NCBI GenBank assembly: GCA_021325355.1
Contig: JAJPHI010000019.1
Span: 186,001-250,000 of the forward strand
DNA from: Pseudomonadota bacterium
GTDB lineage: Bacteria > Desulfobacterota > Binatia > Binatales > Binataceae
Length of the DNA: 64,000 bases
Direction of reading: 5' to 3'
The notes under the pieces were generated by a model, which was given only the letters and a program-made list of their open reading frames with translations, made no database searches and was not told the origin of the DNA. Position numbers and translations under genes: made by a program. This document shows, in pieces, positions 18,518-26,123 of this stretch; position 1 is the stretch's first letter, and the number at the start of each line of letters is the position of its first letter.

Positions 18518-19469
18518 GGATACAGGCTACATCATGCTGAGGTGCTTTGGCTTGCAGGGGCGGGACGATCTCCGAGCATCGCGGAATCGCCAGCGGACAG
18601 CGCGGATGGAAGCGACAGCCGGAGGGCGGCGCCGCCGCACTCGGAATCGTTCCGGCGATCGCCTTCAGGCGCCGCCGCGGCCCCCCGCTGCCGGGAATCG
18701 ATTCGAGCAGGGCCTGCGTATACGGATTAAGCGGATGCTGGAACAGTTCCGCTTTCGCGCATCGCTCCATCACGCGCGCGGCGTAGAGTATTACCACCTC
18801 ATCGGCGTATTGGGCGACGATACCGAGGTCGTGGGTCACGAGGATTACCGCGAGATCAAGTTTCTGCTGCAACTCGCGGATCAGATCGAGGATTTGCGCC
18901 TGGATCGTCACATCGAGCGCGGTCGTCGGCTCATCCGCGATCAGCAGATGCGGATTACACGCGAGCGCCATCGCGATCATCACCCGCTGGCGCATCCCGC
19001 CCGATAACTGATGAGGATAGTCGTGGATCCGCCGCTCCGGATCCGCAATCCCAACCATTCGCAATGCGGCGATCGCGCGGTCGCGAGTCTCCGCGCGACC
19101 GGTTCGCTGATGCAGGCGGATAGCTTCGCCAACCTGATTGCCGATGGTAAAGACCGGATTCAGCGAGGTCATCGGCTCCTGGAAAATCATCGCCATCCGC
19201 GCGCCACGGATCCGGCGCATTTCGGCCTCGCTCAAGGTCAGCAGATCGCGGCCCTCGAAGGTTATCGAACCGCTGACGATTCGCGCCCCGGGCGGCAACA
19301 GCCTCATGAGCGAAAGCGCCGTCATCGTTTTGCCGGAGCCTGATTCGCCAACGATGCCGATCAGACGTCCGCGATTCACGGCGAAGCTGACGTCGTCGAC
19401 GACGCGCGTTTCCCGCCCGTCGCTGAAGAACGACGTACTGAGTCCTGTCACTTCAAGCAGTGGCTGCAA
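18510..19469 (-). CDS. oppD: Oligopeptide/dipeptide ABC transporter ATPase (OppD-type)
   Basis: A 319-residue ABC ATPase, heterodimer partner of the adjoining OppF-type protein. It shows Walker [17 protein letters not shown]-loop [15 protein letters not shown], signature [15 protein letters not shown], Walker [13 protein letters not shown] and H-loop VTHD, then the C-terminal [16 protein letters not shown] and the Cys pattern [14 protein letters not shown]. The start appears to be TTG at 19469 with no obvious Shine-Dalgarno. The substrate cannot be told without a binding protein. A 7-bp inverted repeat lies about 110 bases upstream. Confidence 0.93.
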
Positions 19470-19575
19470 GCGACGTTAAATCTATCACTGGATCGGCCCG
19501 GATCGAAATTTTTTGCACGCCGACCGAGGGTCAGGCGGCTGATACTTCGACCTGCCGAAATGGACAAAGTTCGCA

Positions 19576-19595
19576 CGCGCAAATATCCTTGCGCG
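19576..19595. repeat. Inverted repeat between divergent oppD and lipoprotein genes
   Basis: CGCGCAA at 19576-19582 and TTGCGCG at 19589-19595 form a perfect 7-bp inverted repeat with a 6-base AT-rich spacer. It sits in the 166-base divergent gap, about 40 bases before the lipoprotein start. It could be an operator or an RNA hairpin in the lipoprotein leader. Confidence 0.35.
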
Positions 19596-19635
19596 TTGCC
19601 ACTATGGTCAAGTTTGTCGAAGGGTACCGCTTGAG

Positions 19636-19902
19636 ATGAAATCGCTCCGTACGGCAGTGCTTATCGTCCTCACCCTCGGGTCTCTGTATGGATGTTCCGA
19701 CACCTTCGGAGACAAGCTCAGCGAGCATCGTTACTGCGTCGGCGTTGCGCAAATCCAGCCGCAAAAGGTGGATGACTGCCTGCGCGATACGAACGGCCAT
19801 CGCGAGCAGATCGATTCGTGCCTGTCCGGCGCGATGGTGCCCGATCGCAAGATCGCGATGCTGAATGATTGCGTGGAGTCGAGCGAGCACGGGGGTTATT
19901 AA
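19636..19902 (+). CDS. Small Cys-rich lipoprotein, unknown
   Basis: An 88-residue protein with a lipoprotein signal (MKSLRTAVLIVLTLGSLYGC, lipobox LYGC). The mature part holds four further Cys, in YCVGV, DDCLRD, DSCLSG and NDCVES, evenly spaced and suggestive of two disulfides or a helical hairpin. I do not recognise the family. The last bases are shared with the convergent MauE/DoxX gene: both stop codons lie inside TTAA at 19899-19902. It faces the thiol-redox gene block, but whether it belongs to that system is unknown. Confidence 0.65.
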   Translation: MKSLRTAVLIVLTLGSLYGCSDTFGDKLSEHRYCVGVAQIQPQKVDDCLRDTNGHREQIDSCLSGAMVPDRKIAMLNDCVESSEHGGY

Positions 19903-20339
19903 GCTTTGGCGCGAGCCTGCAACACATAGATGATCGCGCAGCCGGCGACCGTGAACAGGTTACGCACCAAATCGATCCACGGATTAGTCGTTGAGGCGCC
20001 CGGCCCGAAGCATCCGCAGTTGACGTCGAGGCCGCGCGCCAGCGCCTGAGCAAGCGCAATCACGAAAATCAGCGAAAGCACGAACACGGCCGCGGCGCCG
20101 ATCCGGCGAGGACGGCCGCCCAAAATAAGCAGGCCTGCGATGATTTCGAAAATCGGCAGCGCCAGGGCGAAGATGCTGACGATAGCGTTGGGCAGGATCG
20201 CGAACGATGCGACACTGTCGGCGAAACCCAGCGGATCGCCGACTTTGCTCCATCCGGCGTAGACAAACTCCAAACCGATCGCCGTGCGCAGCCCCAGCTC
20301 GACCACAATCCAGCCGCCGCGACGTTGCAGTCTGAGCAT
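19899..20339 (-). CDS. MauE/DoxX-like membrane protein
   Basis: A 146-residue protein with four predicted membrane helices. The N-terminal part, LRTAIGLEFVYAGWSKVGDP, is typical of the DoxX/MauE group, and the motif NCGCFGPG in the loop before the last helix carries the paired Cys of MauE-like proteins. MauE family members are linked to disulfide formation or maturation of periplasmic redox enzymes. It is the last gene of the leftward block, three bases after the rhodanese gene, so it is surely co-transcribed. It probably moves electrons or thiols at the inner membrane; the partner is inferred, not shown. Confidence 0.82.
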   Translation of the reverse strand: MLRLQRRGGWIVVELGLRTAIGLEFVYAGWSKVGDPLGFADSVASFAILPNAIVSIFALALPIFEIIAGLLILGGRPRRIGAAAVFVLSLIFVIALAQALARGLDVNCGCFGPGASTTNPWIDLVRNLFTVAGCAIIYVLQARAKA

Positions 20340-20342
20340 CGT

Positions 20343-20873
20343 TCAATGCGCGACCGGCTGTCCGGCAGCAGTCCACGCCGGCCATCCGCCGGTGAAGATC
20401 CGGACCTGCGAGAAACCAAGGCTCAGCAGCGCGCTGGCGACCATCCGACTATCCTGACACTCGCCGCCGGAGCAATAGACGATGATAGGCGCGTCCTTTG
20501 CGCGATCGAGCTGCGGCCGCAGCCGAACATAGTCGCGCGCGAAGTCGGCACGCGACAGATTCAACGCGCCCGGCACGTGACCCGCATCGTAGAAAGTCTT
20601 CGCGCGCGCATCGAGGATCACGGCTCGGTGGTCGCGTACCGCAGCCTCGAACTCATCCAGCGGCACCGTCGCAAAGTTCGACAACTCGAAGGCGGGCGCC
20701 CGGATTAGCTCGCCGAGCTCCGCCGCCAGACGTTGCTGCGGCGTCTGATAGGACAGTGGGAGTGGCGTGCCGCGCAGATGGTTCGTCGCGACCCCCAGCA
20801 CTGCCGAGATAACCGCGAGGACCGCCACGGCGGCACAGTCGCGCGCCAGGATATCAAGAGCAGGCGCCTTCAC
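20343..20873 (-). CDS. Membrane-anchored rhodanese-domain protein
   Basis: A 176-residue protein with one N-terminal hydrophobic segment (about 12-30) and a single rhodanese domain (about 70-172). Rhodanese landmarks are AVILDARAKTFYDAGHVPGA and the active-site loop YCSGGECQDS, whose first Cys would carry the persulfide; the loop holds a second Cys. FTGGWPAWTAAGQPV closes the fold. The domain probably faces the periplasm. Its start overlaps the SCO1 stop by four bases and it ends three bases before the MauE-like gene. It may relay sulfur or handle thiols for the other proteins of the block. Confidence 0.85.
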   Translation of the reverse strand: MKAPALDILARDCAAVAVLAVISAVLGVATNHLRGTPLPLSYQTPQQRLAAELGELIRAPAFELSNFATVPLDEFEAAVRDHRAVILDARAKTFYDAGHVPGALNLSRADFARDYVRLRPQLDRAKDAPIIVYCSGGECQDSRMVASALLSLGFSQVRIFTGGWPAWTAAGQPVAH

Positions 20874-21526
20874 CCGGCTGCGGGCTCACCACCGCCCAAG
20901 CGCCGGGCAAGCTGCTCGCCTTTAAGCACCTGCTCGACGTCGCCCGCGATTTTTGTCGGCGGCGTATCCGTGGCCAGATACTGCATCAGCGGACGCCCAT
21001 CCGCGCCGACCAGGAAAAACTCCAGGACGTGGTCGACCGTGCCGTCGGCTTCGCGCTGCCGCTTCAGCCTGAATCGCGCCATCAGCCGGTCAATCGTGGC
21101 CGGCGGGCCGGTCAGAAACAGCCATCCGGAGCGTTCGGCGCCCTGCTCTTTTGCGTATGTTTTCAGAACCGACGGTCCGTCATGCTCCGGATCAACGGTC
21201 ACCGATACCAACCATACCCTGGTGCCGACGTTCGATCCGAGCTGGTTCGCGATCGATCGCATGCGCGCGGTCATGACGAGACACGGGCCGGGACAGGTCG
21301 TATAGATAAAGTCGAACAACACCGGCTTGCCTTTGAGGGAGGCGAGCGAGAGTTGTCGTCCATCCTGATCGGTCAGCTCCAGCGCGGGGAGACAATCCCG
21401 CTTCGCGGTCTCCGAGTCCGAACTGACCGATTCCGTATTGCTGTTGCAGCCAGTCAACGAAGGGCCGAACAGAAGACTGAGGATAACTAATGTTGTGAGT
21501 ATACTATGATTGTGAGTGGACTTCAT
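20870..21526 (-). CDS. SCO1/SenC/PrrC-type copper-binding lipoprotein
   Basis: A 218-residue periplasmic lipoprotein: signal peptide with lipobox LTGC (about residue 27), then a thioredoxin-like SCO domain. The copper or redox motif is CPGPC in FIYTTCPGPCLVM, and the third ligand is probably the His of TVDHVLEFFLVG. SCO proteins deliver copper to CuA of cytochrome oxidase or act as thiol-disulfide reductases; no oxidase gene is present here. It lies between tlpA-like and rhodanese genes, overlapping the latter by four bases. This context points to a thiol or metal role outside oxidase assembly. Confidence 0.9.
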   Translation of the reverse strand: MKSTHNHSILTTLVILSLLFGPSLTGCNSNTESVSSDSETAKRDCLPALELTDQDGRQLSLASLKGKPVLFDFIYTTCPGPCLVMTARMRSIANQLGSNVGTRVWLVSVTVDPEHDGPSVLKTYAKEQGAERSGWLFLTGPPATIDRLMARFRLKRQREADGTVDHVLEFFLVGADGRPLMQYLATDTPPTKIAGDVEQVLKGEQLARRLGGGEPAAG

Positions 21527-21552
21527 ATCTCAGTACAGATCCGGGTTATTCA

Positions 21553-22101
21553 CTAATCAACTGTTCCGGTCGGATGCGCTGAGGGCGACGAACGCCGCGC
21601 AAGCAGCGGCGCGACGACGGCCGACAGCGAGGTCTCCGTCAATTCGGGCTGGTCGGGAGTATGAATCGCGCGCACTTCGCCGCGAGGTCCGATGATGACC
21701 GTCACCGGTAAGGTTCCCGGTTGCCCGAAGCCGTCGGCGCTGGCGTCGTCGCGCATCGCGCCTGGCAAGCCGTATTCACTCATCATCCGGACGGCCTCGT
21801 TCCGGTCGTGGGAGCGGTCAAGACTCAGGGCGATTAGCTCGAGACCCTTGCTATGGTAGCGGTCGTATACCGCCTTCAGAGCGGGCAATTCGGCGCGGCA
21901 CGGGGGGCACCAGGTTGCCCAGAAGTTTACGATCACCACCTTGCCGCGCTCCGCGGCGAGGTTGAAGCTGCTGCCGTCAAACTTCTGAACGGTCAGTTGA
22001 GGCGCCGGCTGGCCCACCTCCAGCGCAAGCACCGGCGGCGCGAAGCCTAAGATCGCCGACAGCAGGAATCCCGAAACCATCCGAAGGCCACGGTAGCGCA
22101 T
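21553..22101 (-). CDS. TlpA/ResA-type thioredoxin-like protein
   Basis: A 182-residue exported thiol-disulfide oxidoreductase. A signal peptide ends near PVLALEVG; the thioredoxin fold follows with active site WATWCPPCRAE and the TlpA-type extension KGLELIALSLDR. A cis-Pro is seen in GTLPVTVIIGPRGEV. CPPC is typical of reductants used for cytochrome c maturation or SCO reduction. It lies between the outer-membrane barrel gene (12 bases) and the SCO gene (26 bases). TlpA reducing SCO-type proteins is known in Bradyrhizobium, so the two may work together here. Confidence 0.92.
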   Translation of the reverse strand: MRYRGLRMVSGFLLSAILGFAPPVLALEVGQPAPQLTVQKFDGSSFNLAAERGKVVIVNFWATWCPPCRAELPALKAVYDRYHSKGLELIALSLDRSHDRNEAVRMMSEYGLPGAMRDDASADGFGQPGTLPVTVIIGPRGEVRAIHTPDQPELTETSLSAVVAPLLARRSSPSAHPTGTVD

Positions 22102-22113
22102 CGTTCCAATCGC

Positions 22114-23094
22114 TCAAAAATCATAGCTGAGCACGGTCTTCAGCAGATAGGGCGCCGTTATCTGATTGCCGTTCATGTTCTGAAACACCGGAATGCCAAC
22201 ATCGGTGTACCAGCGGATAATTCCGATTTTAGTCTCGACGCCCGGAGCAATCAGCAGGCGCGAATAGCCGGTATTCGTGGGATCGGCCTGCGACTGGCTG
22301 TCGCGCGCTCGATCCGAAGCGACCAGCGAAACCAGCGGGGCGAACTCCTTAAGAAAGCCGATCTGGCCCCAATTGTAGATAAGGCCGAGTGCGCCATCGA
22401 ATTCGCGGCCGGGCTTGTAATGATCCTGCGTGAAGACCGGCAGGTCATACGATCCCTGCACGTACCAATTGAGCGGACGCTCGAGCAGACTGAAGGGCAG
22501 ATTCCCCAGATGATAAGCGCCGAACAGAAGGTCCGTGCTGCCCGTGCCGATCTGGTTGTCACGATCGACGTGCGGATAGGTGTACCATCCGCTCGGCACT
22601 TTCAGGCCGCCGACGAGACCCGTGGACATATCCTCGGAAAAGCCGGTGTACATGCCTTCGATGCGAATGTCGCCGATCGAGTTCCAGTTGTAGGACTGAA
22701 AGTTGGCGTTATCACCGGTGTACGCCCCGCGATAAAACCGCTGCCAATAGGGGATCTGAATCATCGCCCCCCAATTGCGATTGAACATGTACTGCAGACC
22801 CACCGTCGTGAAGTTGGTCCGCAGCACCTTGTCGTTGTTGTTCGCCGCTGAGGCGATATGCGCCGCATGCCAGTTCAGATACTGGTCCATATAATCGTAT
22901 TCGATCCACGCCGTGCCGCCGGCCCCCTGAGGGAACAGCGAAGAGGTGCCGACCTCGAACACCCCGCATCCGCAGGCGCACGCATGGGCGCTCGAGCGAA
23001 AAGTCGCAAGCAGAATAAAGCCTAAGACCGCGAGTGCGTATCTACACGCTCGCCGAGCGGAGTTCCTGTACCAGTCCGACCACAAGTAAGACAT
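22114..23094 (-). CDS. Outer-membrane beta-barrel protein with N-terminal CACGC motif
   Basis: A 326-residue exported protein. The N-terminus is a signal peptide of about 37 residues ending SSAHA; the mature protein would begin CACGCGVFEVG, with three Cys in five residues. The rest alternates polar and aromatic residues in strands (WIEYDYMDQYLNW, YMFNRNWGAMIQIPYWQRFY, LIYNWGQIGFL) and ends in YLLKTVLSYDF; a terminal Phe is the usual outer-membrane barrel signal. It resembles transporter-like barrels of the phenol MetA degradation group. In this block it is probably the outer-membrane component. The Cys cluster at the periplasmic N-terminus may bind metal or accept electrons from the thiol proteins. 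Confidence 0.8.
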   Translation of the reverse strand: MSYLWSDWYRNSARRACRYALAVLGFILLATFRSSAHACACGCGVFEVGTSSLFPQGAGGTAWIEYDYMDQYLNWHAAHIASAANNNDKVLRTNFTTVGLQYMFNRNWGAMIQIPYWQRFYRGAYTGDNANFQSYNWNSIGDIRIEGMYTGFSEDMSTGLVGGLKVPSGWYTYPHVDRDNQIGTGSTDLLFGAYHLGNLPFSLLERPLNWYVQGSYDLPVFTQDHYKPGREFDGALGLIYNWGQIGFLKEFAPLVSLVASDRARDSQSQADPTNTGYSRLLIAPGVETKIGIIRWYTDVGIPVFQNMNGNQITAPYLLKTVLSYDF

Positions 23095-23190
23095 CGCTTC
23101 TCCACCAGACTCGAGTTGACCATCGGAGCAGGATCGGGCGGCCGCGTTTTCGCGGCGCGCGATCTACCGTCCCCGGACGTGACTGTCGCT

Positions 23191-23493
23191 TCAGGAGAAA
23201 GCGATTCTGGGCGGAGGAGCTGGCGGTTGCTCGGGACTGCGCAAACTCGGCGGCTGCGCCGCGTCCAGCGCGGCCAGATCAAAGGGCGGCGTCGCCAGGT
23301 TGGTGCCCGCGCTTGGTAGCGGGAGACTGCAATGCGTCGATTCGACGCTGACGGACTGGGCCGGGTGGCAGATATCCATCGTGAAGCTCGGATGCTGATC
23401 GCGATTGACGTGCGCCACCACCAGTGGCACACCCGCAACCATCATCGCCAGCATCAGCAGCGCGGCGAGCAGCGGTGATTTGAGCCGAATCAG
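23191..23493 (-). CDS. Small exported protein with ICHP motif, unknown
   Basis: About 100 residues. A hydrophobic signal-like segment (SPLLAALLMLAMMVAGVPL) leads to a short mature part with MDICHPAQSVSV and THCSLPLP, giving two Cys and two nearby His, then a Pro-rich tail. No ATG exists at a sensible place: the frame crosses the upstream DUF2318 stop, where CTG at 23493 overlaps the TGA (CTGA), with AAAAGGGA upstream. I take this coupled non-ATG start as most likely; the frame is also open further upstream. The family is unknown. Position suggests a small periplasmic partner, possibly metal-binding. Confidence 0.55.
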   Translation of the reverse strand: MIRLKSPLLAALLMLAMMVAGVPLVVAHVNRDQHPSFTMDICHPAQSVSVESTHCSLPLPSAGTNLATPPFDLAALDAAQPPSLRSPEQPPAPPPRIAFS

Positions 23494-23942
23494 AATTGTC
23501 CGCGTCCCTTTTCCAGATCCGCCACCTTGAGTTGAATCATTCCATGGCTCTGCGTATTTGGCAACTGAAGCGGCACGCACGAGGCCCTGCCCTTTTCCAT
23601 CTCGCCGATACGATAGCGATTCCCGCAAAAGCGGCAGACCACCTCATCCTTGTCTGTGCGATAGCCCTGATGGTAGCGGCCGCACTGCGCGCAGGCGTCC
23701 ATAACCGAATGAATGCGGCCGGTGCCGTCCTGGGCGAGAATGAAGCGAATGCGTTCGCCGGTGGCGTCGCGATAGCAGAAAAGGTGCGCCCGTCCTCGCG
23801 CCAGGAGGGCGAGCGGAACGCTCACTGACTCCGCCCCGGTAACCTCGGTGCAGGCATCGCGCGCCGTGTAGAGCGCGAGCGCACCGACTATCAGCGCGAT
23901 CGCGCCGCCGGCCAAGAACCATTTCCGCGCGGCGTACCTCAC
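23490..23942 (-). CDS. DUF2318-type membrane-anchored redox/metal protein
   Basis: About 150 residues: one N-terminal membrane anchor (WFLAGGAIALIVGALALYTA), then a periplasmic domain. It carries the DUF2318 pattern of two CxxC pairs, CAQCGRYHQGY and VCRFCGNRYRIGEME, after a segment on the amino-acid usage VRFILAQDGTGRIHS. DUF2318 proteins occur beside FTR1/P19 iron-uptake genes and TlpA-like thioredoxins, for example in Campylobacter; FTR1 and P19 are absent here. The start is uncertain: GTG at 23942 puts the anchor at the N-terminus, while the frame stays open to 24209. This is the first gene of the leftward block. Confidence 0.75.
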   Translation of the reverse strand: MRYAARKWFLAGGAIALIVGALALYTARDACTEVTGAESVSVPLALLARGRAHLFCYRDATGERIRFILAQDGTGRIHSVMDACAQCGRYHQGYRTDKDEVVCRFCGNRYRIGEMEKGRASCVPLQLPNTQSHGMIQLKVADLEKGRGQF

Positions 23943-24236
23943 ATCAGTATGCTTGCCGCAATTACCCTTGCCGGACAAGCGCTGAAGGGAGAAATCGGCC
24001 GTAACCGCGCGATACGTGAAAAGTAACCCGTTCGATGTGGCAACAGGAGTCCGACAACTCTTGTGTATGGCGTCGAATTCGGCGAGACTTAGGGTGCATT
24101 CGGAACGGTTCACGGCGTCGAGGCTGGACAGGCACGGTACTGGGCGTCTCGGGGAGTGGGAATGCTGCAACGCAGTCCGCTCACTGAAAGAGTCGTTCTC
24201 ACAACACATAAGGAAGGAACCGACGAGGAACGCAAG
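23943..24236. other. Divergent intergenic region
   Basis: About 290 bases between the divergently oriented DUF2318 and monooxygenase genes. Promoters for both must lie here. I find no convincing -35/-10 pair or operator-like palindrome. If the DUF2318 gene starts higher than 23942, part of this stretch is coding. Confidence 0.4.
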
Positions 24237-26123
24237 ATGAGCGCGGCAATCCGTATCGATCCCGAGACCGGCCGGAAGATTTTCAACACCCGAGCGGCCA
24301 AGGCGTACGAAAAGATCACTGGCAAAGGCTATTCAGTCCTGGCCGATCAGAAGCTCAAGGAACTGCCGGAGATGCCGGCCGGCGCCACCTTTAATGCTGA
24401 TGAGCAGGCCAAGTATCGGGCTTTCAAGGAAGCCCGCCTCGGCGCGGCCGACTATATCGCGATGGAAGGCGAGTTCAAGAAGTATTTGAACGACGTCTAT
24501 TCCGAACCGCCGATTCCGCGTGAAGCGCTGACCGACGAATGCGAGGTCCTGGTGGTCGGCGCCGGCTTCGGCGGACTCCTGCTGTGGCACAAGCTCAGCA
24601 ATGCGGGCTTCACCGACGTCCGCTTCTGCGAGAAGGGCGGCGATGTCGGCGGCACCTGGTACTGGAACCGCTATCCTGGTATCGCCTGCGACGTCGAATC
24701 CTACAGCTACCTGCCGCTGCTCGAAGAGATGGGTTACATCCCGTCGATGAAGTTCGCCTCCGGCTTCGAGATTCTCGAATATTGCCAGGCGATGGCGCAG
24801 AAGTTCGGCTTTTATGATCACTGCCTCTTCCATACGACGGTCGAGGCGACCACCTGGGACGAGGAATCCGGCCGCTGGATAGTTGAGACCGATCGCGGCG
24901 ACAAGATGCGCGCGCGTTTCGTGATTTTGGCCAACGGCATCCTGACCACGCCGAAACTGGCGCGGATCAACGGCATGGAGAAGTTCCAGGGCGTGGCCTT
25001 CCACACCTCGCGATGGGACTACAATGTCGATCTGCGCGGCAAGACGGTCGGCATTATCGGTACCGGCGCAACCGCCGTGCAGGCGATCCCGGAACTGGCG
25101 AAGGTCGTCGGCCAGCTCTATGTCTTCCAGCGCACGCCGTCGTCAGTTGACGTGCGCGACCAGCGCGCCACCACCGACGAGGAGCGTCAGACCTGGGCTA
25201 ACGAACCCGGATGGGCGCGGGCACGACGCGCGCGCTTCGCCAGAATCTCGGCCGGGCGCACCGCGATTCAGGCCAACGACGACTATCTCGCCGGAAAGAT
25301 CGAGGAGATCAAGAAGCCCAAGCAATACGAGCGCAAACTGACGCCCGTGGAACTGGTGCAGAAGCAGCTTGATGCCAACTTCCGCATCATGGAGCAGATC
25401 CGGGCGCGCGTCGATGCGATCGTCAAAGATCCCAAGACGGCGGCGGCGTTGAAACCGTACTATCCCTACGGCTGCAAGCGACCCACCTTCCACGACGAGT
25501 ATCTGCCGACCTTCAATCTGCCGCATGTGCATCTGGTGGACGTCGCCCCGCTCGGCGTGCGGGAAATCAACGAACGCGGCGTCGTGCACGAGGGCGTCGA
25601 GTACCCCCTGGACGTGCTGATTTACGCGACCGGCTTCCAGTGGATGGGAACTTCGACGTTCAATCGGATCACCGGACGCGGCGGTCGTACGCTCAAGGAA
25701 AAATGGGAAACCGAGGGTACCAAAACCTTTCTCGGCCTGCATAGCAAGGGTTTCCCCAACCTGTTTATCGTAACCGGCCCTCAGGGCGGCGGTGGCAGTT
25801 TCAACTTCACCGACGCGATCGATGCTCACGGCGACTATCTGGTCTGGATGCTGCAGACCATGCGCGAGCGCGGCGCCCGTATCGTCGATGTGCGACAGGA
25901 ACACGAAGATACTTACGCGGAGCACTGCCGCGTCGTCGATATCGCGACGGCGCCGTTGCGCGATTGCGTCTCGTACTACAATGGTGAAGGTAAGGCTGAG
26001 CCCGGAAGCCTCGCTTACTACGGTGGCGGTCAGTGGCACAAGCATCGTATCGCCGCGCAATCGTCGCTCGAGCCTTACGTGTTTGACTATTCTGAGTCGG
26101 TGATGACCGCCTCACCCAAGTAA
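24237..26123 (+). CDS. Flavin-containing Baeyer-Villiger monooxygenase
   Basis: A 628-residue FAD- and NADPH-dependent enzyme that inserts oxygen next to a ketone to give an ester or lactone. The FAD Rossmann motif VVGAGFGGLLLWHKL starts near 105. The type I fingerprint FxGxxxHxxxW appears as FQGVAFHTSRW near 250, and the NADPH motif GIIGTGATAVQ near 272. The domain is preceded by about 100 residues typical of longer members such as HAPMO- and cyclododecanone-type enzymes. ATG at 24237 has GAGGAA upstream; the open frame begins at 24156. A strong terminator follows, so it is a single-gene unit. The substrate is unknown. Confidence 0.93.
   Translation: MSAAIRIDPETGRKIFNTRAAKAYEKITGKGYSVLADQKLKELPEMPAGATFNADEQAKYRAFKEARLGAADYIAMEGEFKKYLNDVYSEPPIPREALTDECEVLVVGAGFGGLLLWHKLSNAGFTDVRFCEKGGDVGGTWYWNRYPGIACDVESYSYLPLLEEMGYIPSMKFASGFEILEYCQAMAQKFGFYDHCLFHTTVEATTWDEESGRWIVETDRGDKMRARFVILANGILTTPKLARINGMEKFQGVAFHTSRWDYNVDLRGKTVGIIGTGATAVQAIPELAKVVGQLYVFQRTPSSVDVRDQRATTDEERQTWANEPGWARARRARFARISAGRTAIQANDDYLAGKIEEIKKPKQYERKLTPVELVQKQLDANFRIMEQIRARVDAIVKDPKTAAALKPYYPYGCKRPTFHDEYLPTFNLPHVHLVDVAPLGVREINERGVVHEGVEYPLDVLIYATGFQWMGTSTFNRITGRGGRTLKEKWETEGTKTFLGLHSKGFPNLFIVTGPQGGGGSFNFTDAIDAHGDYLVWMLQTMRERGARIVDVRQEHEDTYAEHCRVVDIATAPLRDCVSYYNGEGKAEPGSLAYYGGGQWHKHRIAAQSSLEPYVFDYSESVMTASPK

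Follow-up and report, generated by a model that had tools for sequence, protein, structure and literature searches.

A block of seven open reading frames (ORFs), all on the minus strand, occupies positions 19899-23942 of the window, the 64-kb stretch of DNA analysed here, which belongs to a genome grouped with Candidatus Binataceae (Binatota). The genes, families, predicted folds, neighbours and leader-ORF anatomy described below were computed, with ORFs picked mechanically and without a gene caller (Table 1). The initial annotation had listed the same seven genes in this order and on this strand; all the ORFs are present, five with Pfam family matches, and the cysteine motifs are as it described them, namely CAQC and CRFC in the DUF2318 protein, CACGC in the barrel, CPPC in the thioredoxin, CPGPC with a histidine in SCO1, CSGGEC in the rhodanese and CGC in MauE.

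Table 1. Features of the block in order of transcription, with positions in the window
Feature	Position	Strand	Basis
DUF2318/FtrD-like protein, 150 aa	23490..23942	-	PF10080; fold model; Cys conservation
Small exported ORF, CruR/CutF-like leader ORF candidate	23191..23493	-	ORF anatomy; start uncertain
Leader ORF-barrel gap, 96 nt	23095..23190	-	Spacing; predicted RNA folding
Outer-membrane barrel, 326 aa, candidate copper channel	22114..23094	-	CACGC; COG4313-like predicted fold
TlpA/ResA-type thioredoxin, WCPPC	21553..22101	-	Pfam AhpC-TSA
SCO1/SenC copper chaperone, CPGPC and distal His	20870..21526	-	Pfam SCO1-SenC
Membrane-anchored rhodanese, CSGGEC	20343..20873	-	Pfam Rhodanese
MauE/DoxX membrane protein, CGC	19899..20339	-	Pfam MauE

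Layout of the block and its proteins

The genes are tightly packed. Several overlaps had been announced but only two are found, between DUF2318 and the small ORF (4 nt if the latter starts at CTG 23493) and between SCO1 and the rhodanese (4 nt); the remaining spacings are gaps of 96 nt (small ORF to barrel), 12 nt (barrel to TlpA), 26 nt (TlpA to SCO1) and 3 nt (rhodanese to MauE). Between 19400 and 24400 no terminator-like site was found, against 4.2 expected in shuffles. A promoter scan gave five matches versus 1.2 expected, one preceding the small ORF and none preceding DUF2318, and is uninformative; the match (9/12) directly upstream of the small ORF, at 23564-23536, makes a separate transcription start there possible. 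Tandem repeats were not found in 19000-25000, nor was plasmid carriage indicated by tblastn, which gave no match at 1e-5 among 72,556 plasmid records.

The downstream proteins are readily assigned to Pfam families: AhpC-TSA of the TlpA type (E 9e-21), SCO1-SenC (PF02630, E 1e-26), Rhodanese (E 1e-19) and MauE (E 5e-28). The window SCO1 combines the features that define SCO1/SenC membership, that is the family match, a CxxxC motif and a distal histidine (DHV). The first gene of the block matches FtrD-like/DUF2318 (E 4e-18) and encodes an N-terminal membrane helix; its start was placed at GTG 23942 in the initial annotation, and an in-frame ATG exists at 24209. In addition to its CAQC and CRFC motifs the protein has a fifth cysteine, and CxxC...CxxC plus this fifth cysteine are invariant across 36 sequences (alignment A5: 30 of 32 references, the window protein and five others). 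A search by sequence for solved DUF2318 relatives returned only two weak matches, to transposon proteins (E 0.07 and 0.13). With the structural model, nearly all the PDB matches listed have the Rieske fold (E down to 4.4e-4; Z up to 10.4, in a second comparison limited to Foldseek's own candidates). Rieske clusters are held by CxH...CxxH ligands. These are absent from DUF2318, which has CxxC...CxxC instead, and the domain is predicted to be a Rieske fold in which CxxC/CxxC replaces CxH/CxxH.

The small ORF as a candidate leader

The small ORF is short, with a hydrophobic N-terminal stretch, a cysteine motif (DICHP), a proline run near the C-terminus (PPPR, 48 residues further on, in the terminal APPPRIAFS) and an outer-membrane gene downstream. 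Its start is uncertain: the likeliest, CTG 23493, overlaps the DUF2318 stop and gives 100 residues, and TTG 23628 would give 145. Two of the filters used in the CutF paper, PP in the last 15 residues and a same-strand gene within 1000 nt, agree with its terminus and with the barrel 96 nt downstream. A further filter of that paper combines a length under 150 residues with a cleavable Sec signal peptide, for which the window ORF shows a hydrophobic stretch. The intervening gap is GC-rich and structured in predicted RNA folding, and no common stem was seen to cover the start of the barrel gene. In its second half the small ORF is richer in C than in G, a weak resemblance to rut sites.

Among 81 related loci of several phyla, 57 have an ORF of leader type ahead of the barrel, as against 14 of 405 control ORFs, the filter being looser than that of the CutF paper (60-200 residues, a hydrophobicity score, overlaps of up to 120 nt allowed) and the controls being ORFs of at least 250 residues located at least 3 kb from the barrel, with 1000 nt of room needed versus 300 nt for barrels. 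The filters are failed by 24 of the 81 loci. Six of these 24 (L030, L047, L055, L083, L097 and L104) have a match to the small-ORF profile nearby.

Neither Pfam nor NCBIfam gave a match for the window ORF at E 0.1, and this includes the DUF2946 model (PF11162, Pfam, E 0.1). Binatota small ORFs show no detectable profile homology with DUF2946-type ORFs (hhalign probability 1) and lack the CxxC and RAPP of DUF2946, the window having DICHP and APPPR in their place. Two candidate leader types may lie outside DUF2946, C[HQ]P...PPP[KR] in Binatota and HPCxLC...PPPR in Verrucomicrobiota. The distance between cysteine and proline motifs is nearly constant. Counted from the last residue of C[HQR]P to PPP, a measure not identical to that of the CruR paper, it is 48 residues in the window; of 12 Binatota ORFs 11 have 47, and of 21 such ORFs 18 have 46-49. 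For CruR the published spacing is 45 residues, within 1-2. Among the 19 RAPP-type ORFs listed, CxxC stands at 45-48 in nine, at 51 in one and much farther away in two, and is absent in seven. By its anatomy, the small ORF looks like a regulatory copper-sensing leader ORF, presumably acting through ribosome arrest, and not like the carrier within the pathway that the initial annotation had made of this Cys/His protein. Copper-type leader ORFs would then extend to sequence types missed by the DUF2946 model, with the near-constant Cys-to-Pro spacing as their recognition mark.

The barrel and its gene company

No Pfam or NCBIfam family matched the window barrel at E 0.1. Its model resembles the COG4313 channel 4rl8 (Z 24.6, rmsd 2.6 over 252 residues) at 11% identity, and the cited text makes no mention of copper for COG4313 channels (PMC4493636). 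The model has 14 strand segments, where the COG4313 criterion is 12 strands with the N-terminus in the lumen, and its N-terminal residues are of low confidence, as are most of residues 30-46, which include CACGC. This motif, probably the mature N-terminus of the barrel, occurs at 83 of 85 barrel loci, partly by construction, since CACGC[GS]VF was one of the two scan patterns and the best 80 of 181 relatives were kept. Alignment A4 of the barrel took in 70 of 82 trimmed references, the window protein and four distant ones. The 22 strands and plug of TonB-dependent transporters are absent from this protein of 326 residues and 14 strand segments, and there is no TonB-receptor match; the protein is put forward as a TonB-independent candidate for a copper channel. 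Copper genes or copper-type leader ORFs adjoin members of the family in metagenome-assembled genomes (MAGs) that carry the labels Alpha- and Gammaproteobacteria, Verrucomicrobia, Binataceae and others, and also in the genomes of Rhodanobacter sp. C05 and MP7CTX1. Homology to the barrel was considered for the second outer-membrane-like protein of CopC operons and rejected (hhalign probability 2).

Clustering of these genes is more than chance. At 6 of 85 barrel loci, the window included, four or more of the six partner families lie no farther than 6 kb from the barrel; the exact seven-gene order was seen only in the window among the loci inspected. Recurrent neighbours of the barrel are TlpA, SCO1, CusF-SCO1, PCuAC and CuA-type (COX2-type) proteins, and the core kept in other phyla consists of the small ORF, the barrel and TlpA or SCO1. 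Matches to TlpA, SCO1, PCuAC and COX2 number 87 in 397 kb near the barrel against 10 in 897 kb far from it, a count that is partly circular because the profiles were built from the neighbours themselves; 31 of the 85 loci have no such match within 3 kb.

Where relatives lack the barrel, DUF2318 is the first gene of CopC-CopD operons, most of which also have a small ORF of this kind. In 21 of the 25 family genomes that have both, DUF2318 and CopC stand on the same strand no more than about 3.2 kb apart; CopD follows in these operons. Intact barrel and CopC tend to be mutually exclusive, CopC being present with 2 of 9 intact barrels and in 26 of 32 genomes otherwise (Fisher p 0.002, ancestry ignored). 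The genome has three SCO1 genes, and the two outside the window both adjoin copper enzymes, one a copper monooxygenase operon and the other a galactose-oxidase-like gene. The monooxygenase was rejected as a dedicated client, since the barrel does not track it (2/9 vs 13/32, p 0.44).

A probable copper operon and the alternatives

We read the block as a copper acquisition and delivery operon, with a probability of roughly 0.6. We infer the metal solely from the gene company, in which CopC, CopD, CusF, PCuAC, SCO1 and CuA-type proteins are the neighbours, and the direction of transport is likewise conjectural. When copper is low, the ribosome would pause at the C-terminal PPPR of the small exported ORF and the downstream genes would be made; copper at the Cys/His motif about 47 residues earlier would relieve the pause and turn the genes off, as in the CruR mode. 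The barrel would admit copper across the outer membrane, and Cu(I) would bind to its N-terminal CACGC, placed at the periplasmic mouth or inside it. Electrons from TlpA and from membrane-anchored DUF2318 with its predicted Rieske fold may keep copper in the Cu(I) state and the cysteines in reduced form, SCO1 would hand copper to cuproenzymes, and the rhodanese and MauE could maintain a thiol or persulfide state or help assembly; we infer both the electron flow and these last two roles. The single pathway of the initial annotation is retained as a block linking inner membrane, periplasm and outer-membrane barrel by thiol/metal redox, but the metal, which it had left open, is indicated by the neighbours to be copper.

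It had also been held that no described system fits. Leader-ORF-controlled copper operons are, however, known in Bordetella (cruR-crtA-crpH) and Rhodobacter (cutFOG) (PMC9426467, PMC9973294), and on our best reading the block would function like the former, DUF2946 membership of its small ORF not being found by profile. As described for Bordetella pertussis cruR-crtA(bfrG)-crpH, a Cys-sensor leader with a C-terminal Pro motif at a conserved distance precedes, across a gap, an outer-membrane barrel, the same operon encodes a candidate periplasmic reductase, and the operon is linked to oxidase function (PMC9426467, PMC12914433, PMC13038864). Where Bordetella has the TonB-dependent transporter CrtA and the PepSY_TM protein CrpH, the block has a small barrel and a DUF2318 protein of predicted Rieske fold; its leader ORF comes second instead of first and shows no detectable DUF2946 relationship, and the block further includes TlpA, SCO1, rhodanese and MauE. 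Rhodobacter capsulatus cutFOG shares the short exported ORF with a metal motif, a C-terminal PP and a same-strand gene downstream, but CutF controls a multicopper oxidase whose production is raised by copper, and the neighbours named for CutF-like leaders in the cited text are efflux, TonB-like and PCuAC proteins, the window-type barrel not being among them (PMC9973294). The sense of CutF is opposite to that of CruR, and therefore the sign of control could be either.

Were the leader to act in the CutF mode, the block might serve copper tolerance, with the barrel and SCO1/TlpA binding or removing copper. The rise of CutO production with copper (PMC9973294) and the CusF and CopC/CopD neighbours of relatives agree with this, but SCO1, PCuAC and COX2-type neighbours are delivery parts, and the annotated recurrent neighbours, a non-exhaustive set, included no recognisable P-type ATPase, RND efflux or multicopper oxidase; we consider tolerance unlikely. 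Ferrous iron transport, served by DUF2318 and TlpA, is suggested by the association of DUF2318 with thioredoxins at FetM/FetP iron loci, which had been pointed out correctly: in Campylobacter fetMP-fetABCDEF, FetA has DUF2318 and YHS domains, and FetE and FetF are membrane thioredoxins (PMC10783030). A YHS-like ORF, below the Pfam cut-off, occurs in one relative (L023:7833-8237). The Campylobacter cluster, however, has an FTR1-type permease and an ABC transporter, and SCO1, barrel and leader ORF are not named in the cited text (PMC10783030). FTR1 and cytochrome oxidase genes are indeed missing from the window block, as had been noted, but not from the genome, where the sole FTR1 match lies at G000:C6:187619 (contig C6) and the oxidase genes also lie outside the block; with SCO1, CopC/CopD and PCuAC as neighbours, an iron uptake system is very improbable.

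A thiol or sulfur relay along the lines of the initial annotation, in which disulfides, sulfide or persulfide would be processed by rhodanese, MauE, TlpA and DUF2318 with the barrel as a substrate of the relay, would account for four of the seven proteins belonging to thiol families and for the recurrence of the rhodanese-MauE unit, fused into a single ORF in locus L038. Yet rhodanese and MauE are the rarest neighbours of the barrel (3/85 and 2/85 loci) and other phyla dispense with them in the core, which leaves the relay distinctly improbable. Least credible of all is a barrel that passes hydrophobic molecules, as an ordinary COG4313-like channel would, and lies near copper genes for some other reason, for example feeding the copper monooxygenase: the predicted fold match, the implication of COG4313 proteins in hydrophobic uptake (PMC4493636) and the monooxygenase operon in the genome fit it, but the presence of the barrel does not follow that enzyme, and both the leader ORF and the copper neighbours are seen again in other phyla.

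Bradyrhizobium pcuABCDE is a single copper-starvation operon, comprising a small periplasmic protein, an outer-membrane receptor, copper chaperones and a membrane protein; its receptor is TonB-dependent, and DUF2318, rhodanese and MauE are not known to be part of it. Within the copper acquisition reading, we propose more tentatively, and with rather less than even confidence, a class of TonB-free copper import channels: small barrels whose mouth or lumen would be gated by an N-terminal CACGC copper site, under arrest-peptide copper sensors outside DUF2946 (Binatota, Verrucomicrobiota) and served by a four-Cys Rieske-fold periplasmic copper reductase. The orphan domain DUF2318 would gain a testable fold and role, and the locus nominates for copper a different barrel family, testable since it is present in Rhodanobacter sp. 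C05 and MP7CTX1.

The block and its leader-ORF candidate

The genome that carries the window (3.36 Mb in 35 contigs, 95% complete) encodes seven consecutive minus-strand ORFs at this place, and the seven-gene leftward block of the initial annotation is correct in substance. We rate it as a probable copper system of a known kind, headed by a leader ORF, with a new outer-membrane part.

Genes of the block in order of transcription
Feature	Position in window	Strand	Basis
DUF2318	23942-23490	minus	ORF + Pfam
Small ORF	end at 23191	minus	ORF
Barrel	23094-22114	minus	ORF
TlpA	22101-21553	minus	ORF + Pfam
SCO1	21526-20870	minus	ORF + Pfam
Rhodanese	20873-20343	minus	ORF + Pfam
MauE	20339-19899	minus	ORF + Pfam

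The small ORF is the key gene of the block. Its short product, with a hydrophobic N-terminus, a DICHP motif and a C-terminal APPPRIAFS, has the anatomy of two published systems, CruR of Bordetella and CutF of Rhodobacter. CruR is described as a DUF2946 protein in which copper is sensed by a CxxC and a RAPP motif, 45 residues further on, is required for low-copper expression of the downstream TonB-dependent transporter (PMC9426467); it is reported to arrest the ribosome at RAPP in vitro (PMC12992588). With CutF, copper is reported to increase production of a copper oxidase (PMC9973294). The Binatota small ORFs show no DUF2946 membership detectable by sequence, in Pfam or by profile comparison.

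Leader-ORF filters patterned on those of the CutF paper (a PP in the final 15 residues, a hydrophobic N-terminus, a Cys, location on the same strand and at most 1 kb away) were run on the 81 barrel loci whose upstream sequence extends for 300 nt or more, other long ORFs of the same loci serving as controls. They were passed upstream of the barrel in 57 of 81 loci, versus 14 of 405 control ORFs (Fisher p 2e-41, the loci being related). The small ORFs end mostly in RAPP, RGPP or HAPP in proteobacteria-labelled loci, in PPPR in most verrucomicrobial loci and in PPP[KRE] in Binatota.

Cys and proline motifs are separated by a near-constant number of residues, while the intervening sequence is mostly variable. 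The separation is 47 in 11 of 12 Binatota ORFs adjoining the barrel (48 in the window ORF), 46-49 in 18 of 21 Binatota ORFs that follow DUF2318 elsewhere, and 46-48 in five DUF2946-type ORFs; among 31 verrucomicrobial ORFs it is 59 in 23, 58-70 in six and unmeasurable in two. RAPP-type ORFs speak against a uniform spacing rule: among the 19 printed, the CxxC lies at 45-48 in nine, at 51 in one and much farther in two, and is absent from seven. Constant spacing would fit a ribosome-stalling mechanism whose sensor sits just outside the ribosome.

The outer-membrane barrel and its neighbours

Neither Pfam nor NCBIfam gives a match for the barrel, which is present in 14 of 96 relatives; nine of these belong to the window's family and carry it intact, the window counted. 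A scan of genome contigs yielded 181 relatives, the best 80 of which were examined. AlphaFold2 models a barrel with confidence (pLDDT 88.2, pTM 0.80). Among the solved structures compared, the COG4313 channel 4rl8 matches it best (Z 24.6, rmsd 2.6 over 252 residues, 11% identity), followed by FapF (Z about 22), with the copper-related PcoB lower (12.3).

Signal peptidase cleavage follows a simple -3/-1 rule. Judged from sequence, CACGC is probably the mature N-terminus of the barrel, because the preceding residues obey this rule in 82 of 83 motif-bearing barrels. The motif would sit near the periplasmic mouth, although model residues 30-42 and 44-46 have pLDDT below 50; in 4rl8 the first 14 residues are described as folding from the periplasm into the barrel lumen (PMC4493636). 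CACGC occurs in 83 of 85 loci, the motif having been among the selection criteria of the scan. Among four distant barrels from Binatia, three begin with CDLC or CDIC and one is without the cysteines. A frame-broken second copy in G029 (L030:2130-3082) and a truncated gene in G005 (L025:5096-5533) suggest operon decay in some relatives. A relative with 40% identity lies on a contig titled 'MAG: Rickettsia typhi' (L111), an organism label that looks doubtful.

At 85 loci, genes on the barrel's strand and no more than 3 kb from it were counted. Small ORFs were of verrucomicrobial (31), Binatota (12) or DUF2946 type (9); the other genes were TlpA (29), SCO1 (28), PCuAC (8), COX2 type (4), DUF2318 (4), rhodanese (3) and MauE (2). 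Pfam confirmed representatives of PCuAC, DUF2946, COX2, a CusF-SCO1 fusion, PCYCGC and ZIP. At 31 of the 85 loci TlpA, SCO1, PCuAC and COX2 are all missing within this distance; these include both Rhodanobacter loci, where only a DUF2946-type ORF is present.

Several neighbours are of separate interest. SCO1 is fused to a CusF domain at a verrucomicrobial barrel locus (L074:11562-12443). In Binataceae, a COX2-type protein with a CuA domain stands behind SCO1 (L017:7366-7839, L021:7746-8348, L034:12226-12828) and carries a Cys-rich NCDSxCxCATxxM at the expected CuA ligand position, which may be an altered copper site. A PCYCGC-motif protein (PF13798, of unknown function), by association a candidate copper protein, lies between SCO1 and rhodanese (L022:14007-14516) or behind SCO1 (L030:4755-5219). 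L093:4650-10110 holds a TonB-receptor-like ORF (by eye), a DUF2946-like ORF, barrel, SCO1 and a second DUF2946-like ORF. In the window, a small Cys-containing lipoprotein-like ORF (19636-19902, plus strand; no match in Pfam) runs towards MauE and shares 4 nt with the end of that gene; a Cys lipoprotein of similar appearance follows TlpA in L024, L030, L036, L037 and L038.

DUF2318 and the CopC operons

DUF2318 was found in 35 of 41 searched genomes of the window's family. Relatives without the barrel often have, behind DUF2318, a like small ORF, then another outer-membrane-like protein, CopC and CopD, with SCO1 in some. Of the 25 family genomes with both DUF2318 and CopC, 21 place them on one strand within about 3.2 kb. 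CopC is mostly absent from genomes with an intact barrel, occurring in 2 of these 9 against 26 of the 32 remaining genomes (Fisher p 0.002, in a test that ignores ancestry). The swap of barrel and CopC was not one ancestral event, since it is seen inside three genera (g1, g11 and g15).

Rieske-fold proteins make up nearly all listed matches to the DUF2318 model (pLDDT 87.5; best E 4.4e-4, best Z 10.4). Where Rieske proteins carry CxH...CxxH, DUF2318 has CxxC...CxxC, together with a fifth invariant Cys. Our literature search found no paper linking DUF2318 with Rieske proteins; DUF2318 membrane proteins are among the listed members of the copper CsoR regulon predicted for gut Firmicutes (PMC4938975).

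The protein between small ORF and CopC in Binataceae (L129:7573-8490, L136:9324-10262, L126:6848-7771) belongs to a second outer-membrane-like family, with no Pfam match and no detectable relatedness to the barrel. Its mature N-terminus may begin with His (AHGVVGDY), a possible Cu(II) ligand.

Proposed working, alternatives and possible clients

A close parallel is cruR-crtA-crpH, described as a leader ORF, an outer-membrane transporter and a candidate periplasmic copper reductase (PMC12914433, PMC13038864). In the window, the leader ORF is preceded by a Rieske-fold protein, a small barrel replaces the TonB-dependent receptor, and behind the barrel come TlpA and SCO1. Leader ORF, outer-membrane transporter and candidate reductase would most likely act as in that system, with TlpA as reductant and SCO1 as chaperone.

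That the metal is copper we infer from gene company alone. The block might instead confer copper tolerance in the mode of CutF, take up iron as FetMP-like systems do, relay sulfur or thiols, or provide a hydrophobic channel. A literature search, with most subscription journals outside its reach, recognised no description of the barrel in copper operons or of the gene set.

In the window genome, cytochrome oxidase could be a client of such a copper system, as could a copper monooxygenase operon that has an SCO1 gene of its own close by. The latter operon (L146:6167-13701, contig C4) comprises AmoC, AMO and Monooxygenase_B by Pfam, with SCO1 3.7 kb downstream. Copper monooxygenases are reported from 9 of 48 Binatales genomes (PMC8262859); barrel presence does not track them, the monooxygenase occurring in 2 of 9 barrel genomes versus 13 of 32 others (p 0.44). 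On contig C14 of the same genome, SCO1 stands back to back with a galactose-oxidase-like gene (PF09118; L147:6830-10541), possibly a radical copper oxidase.
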